A program made the position numbers and the translations under genes. Under the pieces are notes generated by a model, which saw only the letters and a program-made list of their open reading frames with translations, did no database searches and was not told the origin of the DNA. A stretch of DNA of 64,000 nucleotides, from positions 1 through 64,000 of the forward strand of contig JAJPJX010000020.1 of assembly GCA_021324015.1 (NCBI GenBank), in the 5' to 3' direction. Source of the DNA: Solibacteraceae bacterium. GTDB taxonomy: Bacteria; Acidobacteriota; Terriglobia; Bryobacterales; Bryobacteraceae. This document shows, one piece after another, positions 7,559 through 59,163 of the stretch (positions within the stretch are counted from its first letter, which is position 1; every line of letters starts with the position of its first letter).

Positions 7559-8713
7559 ATGCGAATCACAGCTATCGACACATACATCGCGGGGAATCCG
7601 TGGAAGAACTGGGTGTTCGCCAAAGTGTCCACCGACGAGGGCATTCACGGGGTCGGCGAAGGCACGCTGAACTACTTCGGGCGAACCGTGGAGACGGCAA
7701 TCCAGGAACTGAAACCACTCATTATGGGCATGGATCCGTTCCAGGTGGAGGTAATCAGCCAGCGGTTGGTGCGGGACGTTTACTCGGAAGGGGCGCAGAT
7801 CCACATGTGCGCCGTGGCGGCGATTGAAATCGCCTTGTGGGACATCATCGGCAAGGCGTGCAACCAGCCCATTTATAACCTATGGGGCGGGCGCTGTAAC
7901 GAAAAGCTGCGGGCCTACGCCAACGGCTGGTACCGGGGGCCGCGTACCCCGGAAAGCTTCGCCGAGAAGGCCGCCAGAGTGGCCAAGCGTGGCTACACGG
8001 CCATGAAGTTTGATCCCTTCGGCGACACCTGGCGGGTGCTGCCGCGCTACGAATTCGATCTTTCCGTAGACATCATCCGAGCGGTACGCGACGCCGTGGG
8101 ACCTTCGGTGGATCTGTTGATCGAAGGCCACTGCCGGTTCAACCCGGCCACCGCCATCGAGTTCGCCGAGGCCATTCACCCGTTCCGGCCCATGTGGTTC
8201 GAAGAACCGGTGCCGCACACGAACATCCCGGCCATGGTGGAGGTGGCGCGGCGCAGTCCGGTGCCTATCGCCACCGGCGAGAGCCTTTCCAGCAAGCAGC
8301 AATTTGCGGAGCTGTTGCAATCGGAGGCGGTCCATATCCTTCAGCCGGAACCGCTCAACCTGGGGGGCCTATTCGCGGCCCGCAAAATTGCGGACATGGT
8401 AGATGCGCATTTCGGCATGATCGCACCGCATAGTGCGCAGGGTCCCATCTGCTCGGCGGCCTGTGTGCAACTCAACGCTTCCCTCCCGAATTTTCTAATT
8501 CACGAGATTTTCGATGAATTCAACGAGCCGTGGGAACGCGAGATCGTGACCAACCCGGTGCATGTGGAGGATGGGTACATCGAGGTTCCGGAGCGTCCCG
8601 GGCTGGGCGTGGATTTGAATATCGCGGAAATTCTTAAACATCCGTACCAGCAGGAGAATTATTTGCCGCTATTCAAGCCCGGGTGGGAGCGGCGCGAACG
8701 GCAGGCCGTGTAA
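7559..8713 (+). CDS. Enolase-superfamily dehydratase, galactonate dehydratase-like
   Basis: A 384-residue protein of the mandelate racemase/muconate lactonizing enzyme family, with an N-terminal capping domain (about 1-120) and a TIM barrel. The galactonate-dehydratase pattern can be followed: EGH at 189-191 (metal ligand and catalytic His), FEEP with E215/E216, TGES with E241, and PHSAQGPI with H291. In E. coli DgoD the first metal ligand is Asp and here it is Glu. There is only one lysine (AMKFDPF) where mandelate-racemase-type enzymes have KxK, again as in acid-sugar dehydratases. It would dehydrate a sugar acid to a 2-keto-3-deoxy acid in the cytoplasm. The substrate is inferred only to the level of an aldonic acid. 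It is transcribed divergently from gltX. Confidence 0.85.
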
Positions 8714-10824: not shown

Positions 10825-13530
10825 CTACTTCACGGCCAAAGTGACGCCGCTCTGGCTGGTGGCGCCGCCCACGGTGAGCACTACGGCGAGATTCCCGGTA
10901 GGCACGAATCCGCTGGGGACGCGGGCATTGATTTGCAGGAGCCCCACGAATCCCGGGGCGCTCCCGGCAAACAGAATCTCAGCGGGATTGTTGCCGATGC
11001 GCAGCGAAATGGGCGCGGCCGGCCGGGGCAGGGGAGCGGCGGCCGGCTCGCCGCTGACCGAAGGCGGCCAAGTCTGGCCCACGCCGGTAGCGAACAGCGT
11101 GATCACCGAACCGCGCGAGGCCGCGGCCGACTCCGAATTCAGCGTACCATCCTCGTTGAGGGCCACCACCGGGCCGGCGCCGTTGGCTGCTGTAAACAGG
11201 CCGGGCGCGACATCCGCCACGGGCCACGTGGTGCGCACGCGAGTGGCATTCTGGTACTGGATTTCAAGCTGCACGCTCGGCTGCCCGGCAACGCTGTAGG
11301 GCACCTGGGCGTTGACCTGTTTGTCCTGCGCGTAGAACAACGGCGCCGGGCGGCCATCAAACAGCACCCGGGTATTCCCCAGCAAGGTATCTACCAGTCC
11401 GAAGGCGTTCAGGCCCGCCTGAACGCCGCGCTCGGGCCCGATGCCCGCGGAGAAAAGGGAAACGATCTCTCCGGGTGCCACGGGGCCTGGCAGCATGCTC
11501 GCGGCGTTCAGGACGGCTACGTCCGCTGTGGGAGCGGGTTCCTCAATACTGGCCGGGGGCTGGGTGTCCGGTGTGAGCCGGCGCACCCGGTGGTTGCGAC
11601 TGTCAGCCACGTAAAGGTTTCCGGAGGCGTCCAGGGCCAAGCCCAGCGGGGTGTCCAACTGGGCGAGAGCTGCCGGGCCGCCATCGCCCGCGAACCCGGG
11701 TGCTCCGACTCCAGCTACCGTGGACGTCCCGCCGCCGGGCACGATCATGCGGATGCAGTGATTGCCCGTATCGGATATAAAGATTCGGCCAGAGGTATCC
11801 ACGGCTAGCCCGCCCGGAGATTGCAGGCGCTCGTCGCCGCCGCTACCCACCAACGTGCGGATGACCCCGGAGGCATCCACGAGCCGCACGCGGTGGTTGG
11901 CGGTATCGGCAATATAGAGATTTCCGGCGGCGTCCGCAGCGATACCGGAGGGTTCGTTCAGGCGCGCCAGGATGGCTGGCCCCCCGTCTCCCGTATCGCC
12001 CCGCAAACCCGTGCCGGCCACCACCGTGGCCAGGCCGGAGGGTGCCAGTTGCAGGATACGGTGGTTGAGGGTGTCAGCGAGATAGAGGCTGCCGTTCGGG
12101 GCAACGGCTAGGCTGCGCGGCGACCAGAGCGCGGCCCCGGGGGTTCCGTTGCCGGCCAGCGTGCGGATCCAGCCGGGCGCCACCACTTGGCGCAGCCGGT
12201 GATTCTGCGTATCGGCGATGTATAGGCCCCCGGTCATGTCGACGGCGACGCTGGCGGGGGAGTTGAGCAGTGCCGTGCCGGCTGGTCCGCCGTCGCCGCC
12301 AAAACCGGCCGTACCGATGCCAGCCAGGGTGGTGATCGTGCCGTCGGGCGCTACCCTCCGGATGCGGTGGGCGCCCGCCTCGGCTATGTACAGGTTACCG
12401 CTGGAATCCAGGCTCACGCCCGCCGGCATGTTCAACGTTGCCAGGACGGCCGAGGCGGCCTCGGCCGGGAAGGGCACCGGAAGTTCGGCGAATGCCGATT
12501 GGATCTGGCCCGAAGGGAGCACCTTGCGGATGCGGCGGTCATCCACGAGGTAGAGGTTGCCCGTAGCATCGAAAGTCAGGTCGCGGACCACGGTGAGAGT
12601 GGCCTGCACAGCCGGGCCGCCATCTCCCGAACCGCCGGTGACTCCTGTGCCGGCCGCTACACTCACCTGACCTGTCAGGCTCACGCGACGGACCGCCGGG
12701 CCCTGGTCGCCCACGTATACGTTGCCGGAAGCGTCGGCCGCCAGCGCCGTCGGCGTGGGCCCGGCGGCGTCGTTGGCCAGCACAGTGGTGATGAAGCCTG
12801 TGGCGGTGACTTTTCGGACCCTGCGGTTCTGGCTGTCGGCGATGTACAGGTTTCCCAGGCCATCCACAGCCAGGCCGGCGGGATACGCCAGTTGCGCGGT
12901 AACAGCCAAGCCGCCGTCGCCGCTGAAACCGGCCGCGCCGTTGCCCGCGACCGTGCGGATGGTTCCGTCCGTGGAGACCCGCCGGACTCGGTGTCCCTGG
13001 AATTCAGAGATATACAGGTTGCCGGCGGCATCCAGGGCGAGATTGCGAGGGGAAAGCAGACGTGCGGAAACTGCCTCGTTGCCGTCGGCGAGCGAACCGC
13101 CGGAACCGCTGCCGGCCACAGTGGTGATGATGCCGTCCAGCCCTATGCGCCGGACCCGGTTGTTACCCAAGTCGGCGACGTATAGATTGCCTTGGGTATC
13201 CACCGCAAGGCCGTAGGGAAAGTTGAGATTCGCTGCGCCGGCCGGTCCGCCGTCGCCTTCGAAACCCGCGTAACCGGTGCCGGCTACGGTGCTCAGCAGG
13301 CCCCCAGGGGTCAGGCGGCAGATGCGGTGATGGTCCGTGTCGGCGAAGTACAGGTTGCCCCAACGGTCTGCCGCCACGCCCAGGATGTCACCCGGCGGGA
13401 GGGCGGCGGGAGCAGCCGGGCGCCCCCCGCCAGCCACAGTTTCGATGTGATACGTGGGTTGGCACAAAGCCGGCGCGGCCGCCACCGAGAGAACGGCGGC
13501 AGTTGCAAGAGTGAGAGGAGCAGGCTTCAT
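10825..13530 (-). CDS. Secreted NHL-repeat beta-propeller protein with Solibacter C-terminal domain
   Basis: A 901-residue exported protein. The signal peptide is [23 protein letters not shown]. About twelve NHL repeats follow, each with the pattern GLAVDxxGNLYVADxxNHRVRRV, enough for two six-bladed propellers or one large closed array. Between blades lies a repeated loop of the form TVAGTGxxGFxGDGGPA. From about residue 665 the protein changes to the C-terminal domain typical of Solibacter ([21 protein letters not shown]...GIGPERG...VNAQVPY...[12 protein letters not shown]...[15 protein letters not shown]), matching TIGR03437 by eye. NHL propellers bind proteins, peptides or glycans. It is divergent from the protease at 13601 and ends 28 bases upstream of thiD, with no shared function evident. 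Confidence 0.9.
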
Positions 13531-51229: not shown

Positions 51230-52542
51230 ACTTTGCCGCTAACCTCCGCCGGCGCGCCGCCCTCGGCAATCCCGTGCGTGTCGGGCTGATTGGGGTGGGC
51301 AAGTTCGGCAGCATGTTTCTCTCGCAAGCGCTGCGTACGCCCGGATTGCTGCTGGCGGGCATCGCCGATCTGGCCCCCGCGCGGGCCCGCGCAGCCATCG
51401 AGCAAGTAGGCGGCGATCCGTCGTCCGTCCCGATCACCGAGGACGCCGAGACGCTCATCGCCACTGACGGGTTGGAACTGGTGGTGGATGCCACCGGCGA
51501 TCCGGCCGCGGGCATCCGGCACGTGCGGCTGTGCTGCCGATATGGGCGCCACATCGTGATGGTCAACGTCGAGGCGGACGCCCTGGCCGGCCCACTGCTG
51601 GCGCGCGAGGCGGCGCAAGCCGGCATCGTCTACAGCCTGGCATACGGAGATCAGCCGGCCTTGATCGCTGAGCAGGTGGATTGGGCGCGCGCCGCGGGCT
51701 TCGAGGTGATTTGCGCGGGCAAAGGTACCAGGTACCTGCCGGCCTATCATGCCTCCACTCCCGAAACGGTCTGGCCGCTGTACGGTCTCTCCGCGGAGGA
51801 GGCCGAGCGGGGCGGATTGAACCCCAAAATGTTCAATTCCTTCCTGGACGGCACCAAGTCCGCCATCGAGATGGCCGCGGTAGCGAATGCGACGGGCCTG
51901 ACGCCGGCGCCCGGAGGGCTCGACTTCCCGCCCTGTTCCATTGACGACCTGCCGCGGGTGTGCCGCCCCCGCGCGTCGGGCGGGGAACTGGCGCATGCCG
52001 GCACTGTGGAGGTCGTTTCGTCGCTCGAACGCGACGGCCGGCCTGTGGAGCGCGATCTGCGCTGGGGCGTCTACGTCACGTTCGAAGCACCCAGCGAATA
52101 TGTGCGCCGCTGTTTCCGTGAGTACGGCCTGCGCACTGACGAAAGCGGCCGGTACGCTGCCTTGTACCGGCCCTATCATCTGATAGGCCTGGAGTTGGGG
52201 ATCTCCGTGGCCAGCGTGGCCCTGCGGGGCGAGCCCACCGGCTGCCCTACCGGGTTCCGGGGCGACGTGGTGGCGGTGGCCAAGCGCCCGCTGGCCGCGG
52301 GAGAGATTCTGGATGGTGAGGGCGGCTACACCGTGTACGGCCATCTCATGCGGGCGGCCGATTCCCTGCGGCTCGGCGGCCTGCCGATCGGGCTTGCCCA
52401 CGGCGCGCGTTTGTGCAGGCCGGTAGCCGCCGGTGAGCCGGTGCGGTGGGTGGACGTCAGCTTGGACGCCTCTTCGGAAGTGGTGGCTTGCCGGCGTGCC
52501 ATGGAAGCCTTGTTTCGGAGCTCCCCGGGGCCCTCGGCCTGA
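51226..52542 (+). CDS. NAD(P)-dependent homoserine-dehydrogenase-like protein with C-terminal SAF domain
   Basis: A 438-residue cytoplasmic oxidoreductase of the COG4091 type. The Rossmann domain begins VRVGLIGVGKFGSMFLSQAL (GxGxxG) and LVVDATGDPAAGIRH; the catalytic region has GTKSAIEMAAVANATGL. The last 100 residues form a SAF domain (DVVAVAKRPLAAGEILDGEGGYTVYGHL), a fold shared with sialic acid synthase antifreeze-like proteins. Homologues occur in pathways for sugar acids or branched sugars; the substrate is inferred as a sugar-derived hydroxy acid. The last 217 bases overlap, antisense, the coding region of the convergent glycosidase-like gene. Confidence 0.8.
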   Translation: MNFAANLRRRAALGNPVRVGLIGVGKFGSMFLSQALRTPGLLLAGIADLAPARARAAIEQVGGDPSSVPITEDAETLIATDGLELVVDATGDPAAGIRHVRLCCRYGRHIVMVNVEADALAGPLLAREAAQAGIVYSLAYGDQPALIAEQVDWARAAGFEVICAGKGTRYLPAYHASTPETVWPLYGLSAEEAERGGLNPKMFNSFLDGTKSAIEMAAVANATGLTPAPGGLDFPPCSIDDLPRVCRPRASGGELAHAGTVEVVSSLERDGRPVERDLRWGVYVTFEAPSEYVRRCFREYGLRTDESGRYAALYRPYHLIGLELGISVASVALRGEPTGCPTGFRGDVVAVAKRPLAAGEILDGEGGYTVYGHLMRAADSLRLGGLPIGLAHGARLCRPVAAGEPVRWVDVSLDASSEVVACRRAMEALFRSSPGPSA

Positions 52543-53966
52543 GGCGCGGCCCGGTCACCGCCGCGCGAATCGCCCAGCAGGCCGGCATGCCGGAGGCTCA
52601 GATAGGGCAGCGCCACCGTGGCCACGTAGAGTGGGTTGGCGTGGCGCCCCGTGTCGGGATTGAACCACTCCCAGGCTTGGGTCATGCCGTCGCCCCGCAG
52701 ATGAATTCGCAGGAACCGCATGTAGTCCCGCGCCATGGCGGCCGCGGCGTTCCGGTCCGCCTGCCACAAGGCTGCGATATACCAGCCGCTGGGCGTACCC
52801 CAGTAGCCGCCATTCTGGTATTCACCTACGGGCGAGACGGAAATCTGCCATCCGCCCCGGTTCGTGGCGTCCGTGGTCAGGATCTGGCGCACGCAGCCTT
52901 CGCGCACGGCGGTCTGTTCGCGGTAGGCTCGCAGCAGGGCACGCGCCACCGGTTGCGCGTTACGGCCCTCTACGGCGCCGCTCCACAAGGCGTACGCGCT
53001 GCCCCAGACGTCCGGTTGGTTGCCCGCTCCAGTGGCCGAATGCAGCCAACCTTCGTCCGGCTCCGCAGCCCTATGAAAGAACGTGGGCACCAGGGCGGCT
53101 TTGATACGTGTCGCCTCCTGCCGGTACTCGGCGGCTTTGGACTCCTGGCCGACCGCCCGAAAGAGTTCCGCGAGGCGCGTGGCGGCCACGTACTTCAGCA
53201 GGGAAGGGAAGAGCAGTTTGCCGCTTTTGCTCTCCCCGTCGCAGAAACCGAAGTCCTTGGCGTTTTCCTTTTCCACGTCTCCGGTGACACAGAGGCCGGT
53301 TTGGGAATCCGTCGGCGCCACCCGGTACACCTTCTCGCACAGATCCTGAAGCGGGATATCTCCGCTCGAAATCCGCACCCGCGACTGGAACAACTCCAGG
53401 CTGCCGGTCATCTTCCAGTGCTCGTAGACGGCGTGGATGAAGTAAAAGTGGTCGTCCAGTGGGGGATATTTGCCCCACGGTTTGCCGCCTTGTTCCGATC
53501 CCGTGTCGTAGCTCCCCGGATAGAAGGTCGCCAACCCGTTGAAGTTGATGTGGTCGGGAACCGCCCAGGCGGGAATCAGCACTCCGGGACGCAGCGGCCG
53601 GTCTGCCGGGGAGACGGTCGCGGCGATTAGCCGGATCCAGCCCTCCACCTCTTTTTCAGGAATGAAGTCGGCTCCCAGCATCATGACCGCATCGCGCACC
53701 CAAAACGCGGGGTACCCCATGTTGCCACCGGGAACATGGACGGTGAAGCGCGTCTGATTGCGCCACTTGCCGGACGCCTGGCCCGCATCCAGGCGGGCGG
53801 AATCCACGATGCGGCGGGCCTGCTGCCGCCAGAAATCCTCGTCCGCGTGGTTGAGTAGAGGTCCCGCCAGGCATGCGCGAAACGCGGCAGCAGCGAGCAC
53901 GATCAGGTTGGCGAGTCTTCTGAGCAAGGGATCCTGCGGCGCATCTCGGCCTGAAAACCCTATCAT
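52326..53966 (-). CDS. Secreted six-hairpin glycosidase-like protein, 3' end antisense to neighbour
   Basis: A 546-residue (alpha/alpha)6-barrel protein: YPAFWVRDAVMMLGADFIPE, DDHFYFIHAVYEHWKMTGS, TGAGNQPDVWGSAYALWSGA and GGYWGTPSGWYIAALWQ are typical of glycosidase barrels acting on glucosides or rhamnosides. A hydrophobic signal-like stretch (LANLIVLAAAAFRACLAG) lies near the start; TTG 53927 with AGGA upstream is an alternative to ATG 53966. After about residue 455 the protein leaves the domain and the last 72 codons run antisense through the SAF-domain gene. That tail is low-complexity and basic, so the ancestral stop was probably lost. It is downstream of the XRE regulator gene on the same strand, which may control it. 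Confidence 0.7.
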   Translation of the reverse strand: MIGFSGRDAPQDPLLRRLANLIVLAAAAFRACLAGPLLNHADEDFWRQQARRIVDSARLDAGQASGKWRNQTRFTVHVPGGNMGYPAFWVRDAVMMLGADFIPEKEVEGWIRLIAATVSPADRPLRPGVLIPAWAVPDHINFNGLATFYPGSYDTGSEQGGKPWGKYPPLDDHFYFIHAVYEHWKMTGSLELFQSRVRISSGDIPLQDLCEKVYRVAPTDSQTGLCVTGDVEKENAKDFGFCDGESKSGKLLFPSLLKYVAATRLAELFRAVGQESKAAEYRQEATRIKAALVPTFFHRAAEPDEGWLHSATGAGNQPDVWGSAYALWSGAVEGRNAQPVARALLRAYREQTAVREGCVRQILTTDATNRGGWQISVSPVGEYQNGGYWGTPSGWYIAALWQADRNAAAAMARDYMRFLRIHLRGDGMTQAWEWFNPDTGRHANPLYVATVALPYLSLRHAGLLGDSRGGDRAAPQAEGPGELRNKASMARRQATTSEEASKLTSTHRTGSPAATGLHKRAPWASPIGRPPSRRESAARMRWPYTV

Positions 53967-53995
53967 AGCGGATGTGCCACGACGCCCGAGAGATC

Positions 53996-55126
53996 TCAGA
54001 GCAGGCGCTCGCCCGCCACCCGCGTGTCGTAGCCGCCCAGGCTCTCCAATTCCTGCCGGAAACTTGACCGGCTCAGCGTGTCCAGCAGGGTTTGAATGGC
54101 CGGCAGGTTCAAGTGGTGGCGGCGGATCGCCAGGTCGTAGCGTTCGCTCACCAGGGGGATGAAGCTCAACCCGAACAGACGCGCGGCAGCGCGCGTGGCG
54201 ATACAGCAATCCGCCGCCTGCGAAAGCACGTGCCAAGCCGCAGGAAGGTGGCCCTGTGCCGTGTGCCCGTACCCGCGCACATTGCGCCGGTCGATGCCCA
54301 GGCGCTTCAGCCACGTATCCAGCAGAATCCGGCTGCCTGCTCCCGCCTCGCGGTTCACCATGGTCACGTCGGGCCGCGCGAAGTCCTCCACGCCGCGAAT
54401 CTGTTTCGGATTGCCCCGCGCCGTCACGACGCCCTCCTCCCAGACTGCGAAGGAGATTACCGCCACCGAATGCCTGGGAAACACCCGCCCGATCTCTGGG
54501 ATGTTGCTTTCCCCGCTGGCCTCATCCCGCAGGTGCGTCCCGGCGATGTGCACGGACCCCTCTTTCAGCAGCCCCAATGCCTGCGAGCTGTTGCGGTGAG
54601 CTAGCACGAGCTCGATTCCCGCCGCCCGGATGTGCCGCGCGAGCACCGAGATCCCCGGATCGCACCCGGCGATCAGGATCCGGTTGCCAGTCTCTTCACC
54701 GTGGAACACTTGCACCTGGGCCTTCGCCGAACCAGCCGGCGCGCTCGTGACCACTGCGTCACTGGACGGAAAATACCAGGGAACCGGGGAGGGCACCACG
54801 GCGATGGTGCGCCGGTCCACGCGGCACAGCTCCACGGGTTGCCCCGGCTGGGGACCCTCCGCTCCCGCGAGCAGCGTGACTAGGTCTGTGCGCAGTTCCC
54901 GGACGGTGAAGTCCTCGGGCAGCGCGAACAGGTCCTCCACGCAAGCTTCCAGCGCGCGGGCCAGCTTCAGCGCCACCGCCGTGTTGGGCACATAGCTGCC
55001 CGCCTCCATGGCGTAGATCGTCTGCCGGCTGACGCCCGCGGCTTTCGCCAGTTCCGCGGCCGAAAAACCGCGTTTGTGCCGTAGCGCGGCCAGGCGATTC
55101 TCAATTTCGGCCGGTTTGCGAGTCAT
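53996..55126 (-). CDS. XRE-family regulator with molybdate-binding-like domain
   Basis: A 376-residue regulator. The N-terminal helix-turn-helix (about 8-65) reads LRHKRGFSAAELAKAAGVSRQTIYAMEAGSYVPNTAVALKLARAL. The larger C-terminal part (about 140-340) is a periplasmic-binding-protein-like domain of the type in molybdate-responsive regulators (PBP_like_2/COG1910): ILIAGCDPGISVLARHI, LKEGSVHIAGTHLRD, MVNREAGAGSRILLDTWL and DCCIATRAAARLFGLSFIPL. It probably senses molybdate, tungstate or a related oxyanion and binds the palindrome at 55185-55202 that separates it from the divergent TonB receptor. ATG 55126 is preferred over an upstream start at 55138. Ligand is inferred from domain type and from the ModA-like gene nearby. 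Confidence 0.82.
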   Translation of the reverse strand: MTRKPAEIENRLAALRHKRGFSAAELAKAAGVSRQTIYAMEAGSYVPNTAVALKLARALEACVEDLFALPEDFTVRELRTDLVTLLAGAEGPQPGQPVELCRVDRRTIAVVPSPVPWYFPSSDAVVTSAPAGSAKAQVQVFHGEETGNRILIAGCDPGISVLARHIRAAGIELVLAHRNSSQALGLLKEGSVHIAGTHLRDEASGESNIPEIGRVFPRHSVAVISFAVWEEGVVTARGNPKQIRGVEDFARPDVTMVNREAGAGSRILLDTWLKRLGIDRRNVRGYGHTAQGHLPAAWHVLSQAADCCIATRAAARLFGLSFIPLVSERYDLAIRRHHLNLPAIQTLLDTLSRSSFRQELESLGGYDTRVAGERLL

Positions 55127-55184
55127 GCCGCTTACCAAGTTAACACGCCACGCCGCCAGACCGTGTGATCCTCTAAAATGACAA

Positions 55185-55202
55185 TGTCTTGTATACTAGA
55201 CA
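55185..55202. promoter_or_regulatory. Near-perfect palindrome overlapping divergent promoter, candidate regulator operator
   Basis: TGTCTTGTATACTAGACA pairs at eight of nine positions. It contains TATACT (55192-55197) as a plus-strand -10 box, six bases before the TonB-receptor ATG, and TAGTAT (55198-55193) as a possible minus-strand -10 for the regulator with a leader of about 60 bases. No Shine-Dalgarno sequence precedes the receptor ATG. Confidence 0.55.
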
Positions 55203-55203
55203 A

Positions 55204-58200
55204 ATGAATCCGCTGCGGATCATTTCGGTCTGCCTGCTCGCGGCCGCACCGTGCCTAGGTCAGGCCGGCAGGACGGAACTCTTCGGAACCGTGACCGACC
55301 CTTCCGGACTAGTGGTAGCCGGCGCCCGCCTGGAGGCCGCGGAACAGGCCACCATGGCGCGGTTTGCCTCTGTCTCGGACTCGCACGGCGAACACCACCT
55401 GCTGGGACTGCCCGCCGGCCACTATGTGCTCTCCGTCGAAAAGCCGGGCTTTCAGACATACCTCCAGTCCGGCATCACGCTGCGGATCGCGGACCGCACC
55501 GTCTTGGATGTCCGCCTGGCGGTGGGGCAGCCCTCTCAGTTCGTGGAAGTCCATGCCGCCGCGCCCATGCTCCAGACCGCGGGCGGCGACGTGAGCTACA
55601 CCGTTGACCAGACGAAGGTCGCCGCGCTGCCGCTCGACGGGCGGAATTTCATTCCCCTCATTGCGCTCTCCCCGGGGGTTGCCCTTCCTGCCGGCTCGCT
55701 GCTGCCGCGCATCAACGGTAGCCGCCCGCGCACCAATGAGTACGTTTACGACGGCATCAGCGTGCTCCAGCCCGAACCCGGCCAGGTGGCCTTTTACCCC
55801 CTCATCGACGCCATCGAGGAGTTCCGCCTGAACATCAACGCCTACGCGCCGGAATATGGCCGCTCCAACGGCGGCGCCGTGATTGTCAGCAGCAGGTCCG
55901 GCGGCAACCAGTTCCATGGCACGGTCTTCGAATTCCTGCGCAACGAGGACTTGAACGCGCGCAATTACTTCGCCCAAGGCGGTGCGCGGCCCGAGTTCCG
56001 CCGCAACCAGTACGGCTTCGTGTTGGGCGGACCCATTCGGAAAAACCGCACCTTCTTTTTCGTGGACTGGCAGGGTACGCGGCTGCGCACCGGCATCACT
56101 CGGTTCAGCACGGTTCCCACGCCGGCCGAGCGGCAGGGAGTCTTCGCTGTACCCGTCTATGACCCGGCAACCTCGCCGCGCCAGTTGTTTCCGAACAACA
56201 CCATCCCGGCCAGCCGCTTCGACCCGCTGGCGCTCGAGGTGCTCGCGCACTACCCCCTGCCGAACCTTGCGGCACGGCCAACAATTACGCGCGCCAGACG
56301 GCCGAACCGGAGGCCCAGGACCAGTTCGACACGCGCCTGGACCGTTATTTCGGCGCCCGGCACCGGCTCTTCGCCCGGTATTCCTTCCTGCACGACGAGG
56401 ATACGCCGGTGACGCCCCTGCCCGATGGAAGCGGCCTGCTGACTTCCGGCGCGGTCGGCCATGCCGTCACCCGCGGCGATGGCCTGGTGGCCGAGCAGGA
56501 TTGGACCCTCTCGCCTGGCACGCTCAACCAGGCGCGTTTCGGATATACGCGCCGCGGCCTCCGCCAGGCTTCCTTGCAGAACGGTGACATTACCGTGCCT
56601 GGCGTGCCCCCAAATTTCTTCGCTTCTGTGCTGCCCATTTTCACGCTGACCGGCTATCAGCAGATTGGCCCCACTTCGGCCGCCAATTCCAGGTTCACCA
56701 CCTCAGTTACGGAATACCTGGATACGTTTTCAATGGTGCGCGGCCGCCACACTCTCAAGTTCGGCGCCGACATCCGGCGCGAGGCCCTCGACGTCCTGAA
56801 TCCGCCGAACCCGACCGGCTCTTACGCGTTTACCGCCATAGGCACCAACAATCCGGCCCGGCCGATAAGCGGCAATGCCCTGGCCTCCCTGCTGCTCGGG
56901 CAGGTCAACGCGTTCTCCATCGATATTCAGCCGCAGCCCCTCCAGGAGCGGGCGCACATTGCGGAATTCTTCGCCGGCGACGACTGGAAGGTGTCCAGCC
57001 GCCTGACCCTCAACCTGGGCACCCGCTACACGCTGAACTTTCCCTCCACTGAGGTGCATAATCGCGGCGCGATATTCAACCTCGGAACCCAGGTGCTTGA
57101 TTTCCCGCATACTGCTCGGGAACTGGAGTGCTGCGATTTCGGCCCCCGCGTGGGTGCCGCCTGGCGCCTCGGCGATTCCTGGGTGCTGCGCTCCGCCTAC
57201 GGCATGATCTGGTTCGAGCAGACCGGTATCACCTCGCCCTTTACACTGCCGCAGTTTCCCTTCGTGCAGACCCTCGGGCAGCAGTCTCAGGACAACATCA
57301 ACCCAGCCTTCCTGCTCTCGCACGGACCCTCCGTACAGGTGACGCCCCCGAATCCAAACTCCGGCCTGGGGCAGGGTGTCTTCGGCGTCGATCGCCGGGT
57401 GGGTTCCGGCTATTCCCAACAGTGGAACTTTACCGTGCAGAAGACCTTCGGGAGCGACCTGAATGCGGAAGTCGGGTACCTGGGCTCCAAGAACACCCGC
57501 TTGGGCGTGCCGGACGTCAATTGGAACCAGTTGCCGGCGCAGTATCTGGCTCTGGGAACCGCCCTGCTGGAGCCGGTGCCCAATCCGTATGAGGGGCAGA
57601 TTCCGGCGTCCTCGTCGCTGGGCGGCCCTACCCTCACCCGCCAGCAGTTGCTGCGCGCCTACCCGCGGTTCACCAGCGTGGCGCTGTTCCGGGATAACGT
57701 GGGAAACTCTTCCTATCACGCACTGCAGGCGAAAATGGAAAAGCGATTCTCGCACGGATTGACGCTCACTTTCGCATATACTTTCTCCAAGCTGCTGGAT
57801 GACGCCTCGGCGGTGTTTTCGAACACCATCTTCACCGGCCCGATTGCCAACTACCCGGTCGCCGATAGCTTCAACCGGCACCTGGAGAAGGATCTCTCGA
57901 ACGGCGATATCCCGCGCGTGTTTTCGGGCGGTTGGCTTTACGATATCCCGCGCGTGTGGAAGATCTCTGGCTGGCGCATCGGCGGCCTGCTGCGCGTGCA
58001 ATCAGGCGATACCGTGGCAGTCGCGCAAGGCACGAACTATAACTCCAACCTGGGGTACGGGACCCAACGGCCCAACCGCATCGCCCATGCCAATGAATTC
58101 GCCAGCCGCAGTGCCGCCCGGTGGTTCAACACCGCCGCTTTCACCCCCGTGCCCCAGTTTGTCATCGGTGACAGTTCCCGCAATCCCGTGCGTGGGCCCG

Positions 58201-58406
58201 GGCTCCAGGACGCCGACCTGATGCTTGGAAAAACCTTTCGCTTTACCGAGCGCGTGAATCTGGAGTTCCGCGCCGAAGTGTTTAACATCAGCAACACGCC
58301 GCCGCTGAACGATCCGAACGGTACGTTCGGCACACCGGCGTTCGGCGCCATCACCAGCGCGGGCAACCCCAGGGTCTTCGAGTTTGCGGGCAAAATTCAT
58401 TTTTAG
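55204..58406 (+). pseudogene. TonB-dependent receptor (Oar-like), frameshifted
   Basis: An outer-membrane receptor of about 1067 residues when restored. The signal peptide MNPLRIISVCLLAAAPCLGQ is followed by a carboxypeptidase-regulatory-like domain, a plug domain (TNEYVYDGISV; FRLNINAYAPEYGRSNGGAVIV) and a large barrel ending FEFAGKIHF. The first part is in frame to about 56270; the continuation GTANNYARQTAEPEAQDQFD is in the next frame. Inserting one base in GCGGC at 56269-56273 (for example GCCGGC, giving NLAGTANNY) restores one reading frame. Both parts are otherwise well conserved. Divergent from the XRE-molybdate-type regulator and overlapping the ModA-like gene, it is a candidate outer-membrane transporter for a metal oxyanion or its chelate. 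Substrate is inferred. Confidence 0.85.
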
Positions 58407-59163
58407 GCCGGCGCCGCTGCTGGTCCTGGTGGCGGCTCTTTCCGCCTGCCACCACCAGCCTCCTGAAGGACTGCCCACCAAGTCCGAAGTTCTCGTTGGC
58501 GCGGCAGCGAATCTGACCGATGTCTTTCGGCGTATCGGCCAGCGCTTCGAATCCCAGACCGGTATCCACCCTGTCTTCAGCTTCGCCGCCACCGCCCAAC
58601 TTGCGCAACAGATCGAATACGCCGCTCCGTTTGATGTCTTTGCCGCCGCCGATACTGCTCACGTGCAGGAACTCGACCGCAAGGGGCTCCTGTTGCCGCG
58701 CAGCCGCGCCGTGTACGTCCGGGGGGTACTTGCGCTCTGGATTCCCCCGCACACCGGGACGGCGGTCCACACCATCCGGGACCTGGTGTCACCGCAGGTG
58801 CGGATGATCGCTATCGCCAACCCGAAGCTGGCACCCTACGGCGAGGCGGCGGTCGAAGCGCTGCAGCGGGTAGGCATCTGGGAAAGGGTGAAAGGTAAGG
58901 TCGTGTATGCCGAGAACATCAACATGGCGCGCCAATACGGCTCCTCGAAAAATGCGGATGCCGTGTTTACGGCGTATTCCCTGGTGTTCTCCGAGCCGGG
59001 TGCAGTGATTCGCGTAGAGGAAGGCCTGCACCAGCCCATCAATCAGGAATTGGCCATCGTGGCGCGCGCCAAAAACCACGATAATGCGCGCCGATTTGTC
59101 GACTTCCTCCTGAGCGCGGAGGGAAAGGCCATCCTCCGCGGCTATGGCTACGCGACCTACTGA
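58384..59163 (+). CDS. ModA-like substrate-binding lipoprotein
   Basis: A 259-residue periplasmic binding protein of the molybdate/tungstate (ModA) type. A lipobox (LLVLVAALSAC) makes it a probable lipoprotein. ModA features include EVLVGAAANLTDVFRRIG at the start (phosphate-like oxyanion loop with A-A-N-L), FSFAATAQLAQQI (serine in the second loop replaced partly by Ala-Ala-Thr), FDVFAAADTAHV and AIANPKLAPYGEAAVEAL. The start is TTG at 58384, overlapping the end of the TonB-receptor gene by 23 bases, so coupling is likely. No permease (ModB) or ATPase (ModC) is nearby; they could be elsewhere or the protein could work differently. It converges with the secreted aldolase gene with a 7-base overlap. 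Confidence 0.8.
   Translation: MRAKFIFRPAPLLVLVAALSACHHQPPEGLPTKSEVLVGAAANLTDVFRRIGQRFESQTGIHPVFSFAATAQLAQQIEYAAPFDVFAAADTAHVQELDRKGLLLPRSRAVYVRGVLALWIPPHTGTAVHTIRDLVSPQVRMIAIANPKLAPYGEAAVEALQRVGIWERVKGKVVYAENINMARQYGSSKNADAVFTAYSLVFSEPGAVIRVEEGLHQPINQELAIVARAKNHDNARRFVDFLLSAEGKAILRGYGYATY

Follow-up and report, generated by a model that had tools for sequence, protein, structure and literature searches.

The window (the whole stretch of DNA analysed, 64,000 nt) lies on contig C192 of an acidobacterial genome of 8.23 Mb in 214 contigs, and the features considered here are collected in Table 1. The earlier note had described a regulator gene divergent from that of a TonB-dependent receptor (TBDT), the end of which overlaps the frame of a ModA-like lipoprotein; both the divergent pair and the overlap were borne out. 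A long frame adjoining the regulator on the same strand (52326-54314, minus) had no match in the Pfam and NCBIfam scans. Rfam searches at gathering thresholds returned no matches in the window or in the loci L070 and L037 of relatives, and only a tRNA in L127; control by a riboswitch was dropped, since neither the window nor L070 or L037 had a match.

Table 1. Features of the regulator-receptor-modA locus (positions in the window)
Feature	Position	Strand	Basis or remark
HTH (Cro/C1-type) + PBP_like (PF12727) one-component regulator	53996..55126	-	domain matches
Operator-like palindrome ATGTCTTGTATACTAGACAA	55184..55203	.	directly before the receptor ATG; motif from relatives
Oar-like TonB-dependent receptor (TBDT), two frames in the assembly	55204..58406	+	CarboxypepD_reg + OMP_b-brl_4
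Stretch holding the frame shift of the receptor	56256..56274	+	alignment to an intact orthologue
ModA-type molybdate-binding lipoprotein, TTG start, lipobox LSAC	58384..59163	+	TIGR01256; 23 nt overlap with the receptor end

The regulator combines the PBP_like domain (PF12727, 199 bits) with its HTH in the Pfam scan, a type of protein which we take to be that named COG1910. Its closest NCBIfam model is PRK14498, a molybdopterin-biosynthesis protein (186 bits, below the cut-off), while the specificity of PF12727 for molybdate or tungstate is a matter of annotation. Solved structures matched the HTH half only, and none was found for the sensor half. Pfam and NCBIfam scans detected neither a TOBE nor a ModE domain in this protein, and regulation of the ModE type, with its ModE HTH and TOBE/Mop domains, was thus rejected for it. 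The regulator is the sole strong match in its genome, PF12727 being found elsewhere only weakly, on contigs C87 and C203.

The claim that the receptor is an Oar-like TBDT stands, but it is not one open frame in the assembly. The ORFs 55189-56412 and 56409-58406 align to residues 13-361 and 355-1071 of an intact orthologue (65% and 72%, respectively), and these halves, like the intact protein, carry the N-terminal CarboxypepD_reg domain and the OMP_b-brl_4 beta-barrel. The frameshift arose either in assembly or by a recent mutation, two origins that look alike here. The reading frame of the receptor orthologue is likewise split in two or broken by an internal stop in L134 (genome G126) and L092 (G299). 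The structural model of the intact orthologue (59 sequences, pLDDT 74, the plug region being weak) has a plug-in-barrel fold; TBDTs head its Foldseek list, with Cir, PqqU and PfeA among the PDB matches. A VEVTA-like consensus, a candidate TonB box, follows the first domain of the aligned receptors; the pattern used for it matched 16 of 59 sequences.

The lipoprotein exceeds the cut-off of the modA model by far (TIGR01256, 198.3 bits vs 62.5), and matches the solved molybdate-binding proteins 9wgd (189 bits) and 1atg (84 bits). At the two positions compared, N41 and Y150 align with an Asn and a Tyr of 1atg, presumably ligand residues. This is the only modA match in the genome. The locus had been described as lacking ModBC, which is correct for the locus itself but not for the genome, and the search for their whereabouts led to contig C66, away from modA: a modB gene (TIGR02141, 237 bits vs a cut-off of 182.6) is directly followed there by the gene of an ATPase for which modC is the best NCBIfam model, although its 217 bits stay below the cut-off of 285.

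The analysis was extended to 399 genomes of the class, 85 of which contain the regulator (E<=1e-20); 83 regulator loci were read, and G018 and G079, in which the match was partial or split, were left out. In 63 of the 83 loci the regulator has a TBDT within 1 kb; 51 of these receptors are orthologous to that of the window (at least 45% identical) and 12 are of a different kind. The other 20 loci have none at this distance. The chance expectation is about 8.4% of genes, as derived from 9 TBDT frames in 644 kb of 39 modA-centred loci, two of the nine being linked ones. Within the same 1 kb we found a gene for a SUOX-fold protein in 15 loci, modA in 6 and modB in 2 (the fused modBC of L070 was counted as modC and is outside the modB number), and a TBDT or any of these in 72. 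Widening the distance to about 3.4 kb brought modA to 12 of the 83 loci, and regulator, TBDT and modA occur together in 7. The conserved core is the regulator with the receptor, and ModA joins the cluster occasionally. The receptor orthologue itself was found in 111 of the 399 genomes (E<=1e-170) by a search that scored two candidates per genome, so second copies may be missed.

A scan of named records yielded 261 regulator loci. Among the best 80, the regulator has an orthologous TBDT at 1 kb or less in 62, and among the 38 of these 80 that were new it has one in 27. The titles of the best 80 name acidobacterial metagenome-assembled genomes, the nearly complete Bryobacterales bacterium F-183, whose locus L250 holds the regulator together with the SUOX-fold gene, and one metagenome-assembled genome of Bordetella parapertussis. 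The last record (L228, CALQCC020000048.1) carries an acidobacterial modA-TBDT-regulator cluster and has the same size, 22,350, as contig C48 of G024; its title thus appears to stem from an error in binning or naming.

The regulator-receptor pair is embedded in various gene arrangements. In G398 (L097) the order of the window is repeated, the regulator being divergent from the TBDT, which is followed by modA, and here the receptor frame is open. In G028 (L070) the TBDT, SUOX-fold, regulator and modA genes and a modB-modC fusion follow each other on one strand, with ends that overlap or nearly touch, and in G024 (L037) modA is divergent from a TBDT-regulator pair whose frames touch. The regulator of G034 (L036) is divergent from modA with no TBDT between them, and this modA encodes the ModA that scored best outside the window. 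G402 (L091) combines the TBDT and regulator with a WtpABC-like transporter that has its own operator-like site (WtpA at 100 bits, below the cut-off), and in G182 (L087) a stand-alone, molbindin-like TOBE protein (7690-7941) and the SUOX-fold gene are divergent from the TBDT.

Ten of the 12 non-orthologous receptors beside the regulator (L139, L143, L144, L146, L148, L152, L153, L159, L163, L164) form a second Oar-like clade, with 50-91% mutual identity and 26-29% identity to the first; two receptor clades therefore pair with the same regulator. An operator-like site accompanies some of the second-clade receptors. These observations bear on the cargo, which might be something other than molybdenum or tungsten, e.g. 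an organic substrate that is degraded with the help of a molybdoenzyme, the molybdenum sensor then activating the receptor gene when the cofactor metal is available. The pairing of two unrelated TBDT clades with one regulator fits such a cargo, as do the occurrence of modA in a minority of clusters and the huge expansion of Oar-like receptors (at least 65 PF25183 matches in the genome of the window, where 65 of 172 candidates were scored). We nevertheless consider it unlikely, because metal uptake is indicated by the modA-modBC run of L070, the overlap of modA with the receptor in the window, the WtpABC-like neighbour in L091 and the molbindin of L087.

A de novo search for palindromic motifs in 66 TBDT upstream regions yielded the 20-bp palindrome nTGTCrTGTTAACAyGACAn. 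At >=11.5 bits it is present in 53 of the 55 upstream regions from regulator-bearing genomes and in none of the 11 from genomes devoid of the regulator (Fisher p 7e-11), and at >=14.5 bits in 50 of 55 and 0 of 11, respectively; these counts use the same regions on which the motif was trained, and as the genomes are related rather than independent, the p-values are descriptive. The two exceptions in regulator-bearing genomes are L115 and L131, the latter being a second copy in its genome. Outside checks came from two sources. A consensus search (<=1 mismatch) of 121 family genomes detected 7 sites in 7 genomes, as against 2 for the reversed control; 5 of the sites precede a TBDT and 2 the regulator, and 5 of the 7 genomes are outside the training set, to which G002 and G131 belong. 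In addition, 30 of the 38 new named-record loci contain a site >=14.5 bits somewhere in the locus.

At the same threshold 3 matches were obtained in 2.2 Mb of shuffled sequence, and real sites lie mostly before a TBDT, regulator, modA or SUOX-fold gene. Sites placed otherwise occur, among others, in L047 (two) and in L095, L153 and L172 (one each). In L047 (genome G013) a strong site of 21.9 bits at position 10924 precedes a DUF169 gene that lies near modA, and this gene is a possible further regulon member.

The site of the window has one mismatch to a looser pattern. It contains TATACT and may thus overlap a -10 element. Our first guess at an operator, a relaxed pattern that matched the window alone, was superseded by the palindrome learned from the relatives. 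With two mismatches allowed, the loose pattern occurs at three other places in this genome, one of them at a frame that by eye reads like dxr; the reversed control also gave three, and these places were accordingly taken as chance. An extension of the regulon to the modBC genes of the window's genome was likewise dropped, since the 20 kb searched around them (L035) held no site >=14.5 bits.

The receptor orthologues of genomes devoid of the regulator were informative in another way. Of 89 receptor loci read, 48 have the PBP_like regulator and 24 a TOBE protein (one of them the stand-alone protein of L087), and 17 have neither within 1 kb; a nearby contig end cuts 5 of these 17, and the PBP_like regulator is present elsewhere in several of the genomes concerned. 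Thirty-two receptor loci lack a PBP_like regulator beside the receptor; 31 of them belong to genomes in which it has no match, and one is the second copy, L131. In 23 of the 32 a protein with a MerR-like HTH and a TOBE domain (PF03459) is encoded within 1 kb of the TBDT (46-51%). By coordinates alone, the HTH+TOBE gene adjoins the TBDT in G058, G206, G274, G296, G238, G203, G262, G253, G284, G188 and G113; it is not near it in G324, G321, G308, G282, G137, G149 and G175, and lies 2.1 kb off in G100. In L055 such a gene directly precedes modABC. The receptor is thus linked to two unrelated molybdenum-type sensors in different acidobacterial families. No observation argues more strongly for control of the receptor by molybdenum or tungsten status than this pairing of one receptor with unrelated sensors.

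The same data bear on another explanation of the cluster, namely that the regulator and ModA merely happen to lie beside one of many TBDTs. TBDTs are indeed dense in these genomes, but coincidence is most improbable given the adjacency in 63 of 83 loci, the shared palindrome and the swap of regulators, and we rejected it on these grounds. The proposal examined here had been made to depend on the genes being conserved together, and the regulator and receptor are, with their palindrome kept; where this regulator is missing, the receptor is usually paired with a TOBE-type one.

From what was computed directly, i.e. the gene identities, the conserved linkage, the conserved palindrome and the replacement of the regulator by a TOBE-type protein, we infer, with a probability of about 70%, a TonB-dependent outer-membrane uptake system that is controlled by molybdenum or tungsten status and hands its cargo to ModA, the ligand, the direction of regulation and transport itself being part of this estimate. 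The receptor is probably a gate that stands beside molybdenum sensors and molybdate-binding proteins and is switched by them. Under scarcity of the metal, the palindrome before the receptor gene would be released by the HTH-PBP_like protein (which might, less likely, activate from it instead). The Oar-like TBDT, energised by TonB, would then import molybdate or tungstate, a chelate being the likelier cargo for such a receptor. In the periplasm the oxyanion would be captured by ModA, the lipoprotein encoded by the gene that overlaps that of the receptor, and ModBC, encoded here on another contig, would carry it inward. Oxyanion in the cell would bind the PBP_like domain and turn the system off. 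The outer-membrane route for molybdate, tungstate or a chelated oxyanion that the earlier note had put forward thus gains support from linkage, palindrome and regulator swap, with transport, ligand and TonB dependence as its predicted components. This suggests that soil acidobacteria actively pull molybdenum (or tungsten) through the outer membrane, and do not acquire it via passive pores alone.

Being small, free molybdate could also enter through porins, which counts against the need for a receptor. Further points against the uptake reading are the frameshifted receptor gene of this assembly, the location of modA away from most clusters, the absence of a site >=14.5 bits in the 20 kb around modBC of this genome, the 20 regulator loci with no TBDT nearby and the 17 receptor loci with neither regulator. 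TBDTs generally take large, scarce ligands. A tentative and, in our opinion, rather doubtful extension of the uptake system is that the metal enters in organically complexed form (a "molybdophore" or a molybdenum-pterin), a cargo shared by the orphan ModA and, where present, by the SUOX-fold protein. If true, this would constitute an energised route for scavenging molybdenum chelates in Acidobacteriota. The SUOX-fold protein of the relatives (model pLDDT 88.5) is closest to the PruR periplasmic pterin-binding proteins (7kom, 7rkb) and to sulfite-oxidase-type enzymes; its 16 sequences contain no invariant or near-invariant Cys, and the Mo-ligating Cys is hence not kept. The likeness to PruR lies in the fold and in this lack of a conserved Cys; the protein of the relatives differs in residing in molybdenum-type clusters, and its binding of pterin is putative.

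In its most specific form, a molybdenum-pterin (Moco-like) or other chelate would be bound by this periplasmic protein before molybdate is freed for ModA. The encoding of this SUOX-fold protein, which has no conserved Cys, at 1 kb or less from the regulator in 15 of 83 loci, its resemblance to PruR and the preference of TBDTs for large ligands all agree with such a pathway. It is still quite improbable, as most clusters are devoid of the gene, and the genome of the window gave no match to it in a search run without a positive control; moreover, the PruR site is likely unable to hold Moco according to a review (PMC13259868).

If correct, the favoured reading, in which the receptor is a gate for molybdenum or tungsten under the control of their sensors, would add these metals to the cargoes of TonB-dependent transport and point to a substrate for a few of the Oar-like receptors that soil acidobacteria possess in large, unassigned numbers. 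It would also make the nitrogen and carbon turnover that depends on acidobacterial molybdoenzymes testable against the outer-membrane supply of the metal.

The acquisition of molybdate by bacteria is usually described solely from the inner membrane inward, i.e. in terms of ModABC. The system described here resembles this transporter in having ModA and ModB above the equivalog cut-offs (TIGR01256, TIGR02141) and a modC-like ATPase (TIGR02142) behind modB; it differs in the position of modA, which lies apart from modBC and overlaps a TBDT gene. In the open-licence literature of PubMed Central we found no TonB-dependent receptor for molybdate or tungstate other than one prediction, though a subscription paper could exist. 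This prediction concerns a bifunctional iron-molybdenum cluster of Acidithiobacillus ferrooxidans (PMC2631029), in which a ModA-like protein is likewise clustered with TonB-dependent receptors. That cluster comprises 13 genes, is of the siderophore type, and is tied to nitrogenase in one organism, whereas the acidobacterial core consists of two genes with their own regulator and palindrome and recurs across a class. A ModA secreted by the Pseudomonas H2-T6SS, which acts with the outer-membrane protein IcmP (review PMC8602904), offers another case of an outer-membrane ModA partner in molybdate acquisition. The receptor model matches the structures of siderophore- and PQQ-type transporters (Cir, PqqU, PfeA), but the receptor itself is distinguished by its Oar-like OMP_b-brl_4 barrel with an N-terminal carboxypeptidase-regulatory domain, and by its linkage to sensors and binding proteins of the molybdenum/tungsten type. 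TonB-dependent transport as such is known; its control by molybdenum-type sensors, and its probable molybdenum or tungsten cargo, would be new.
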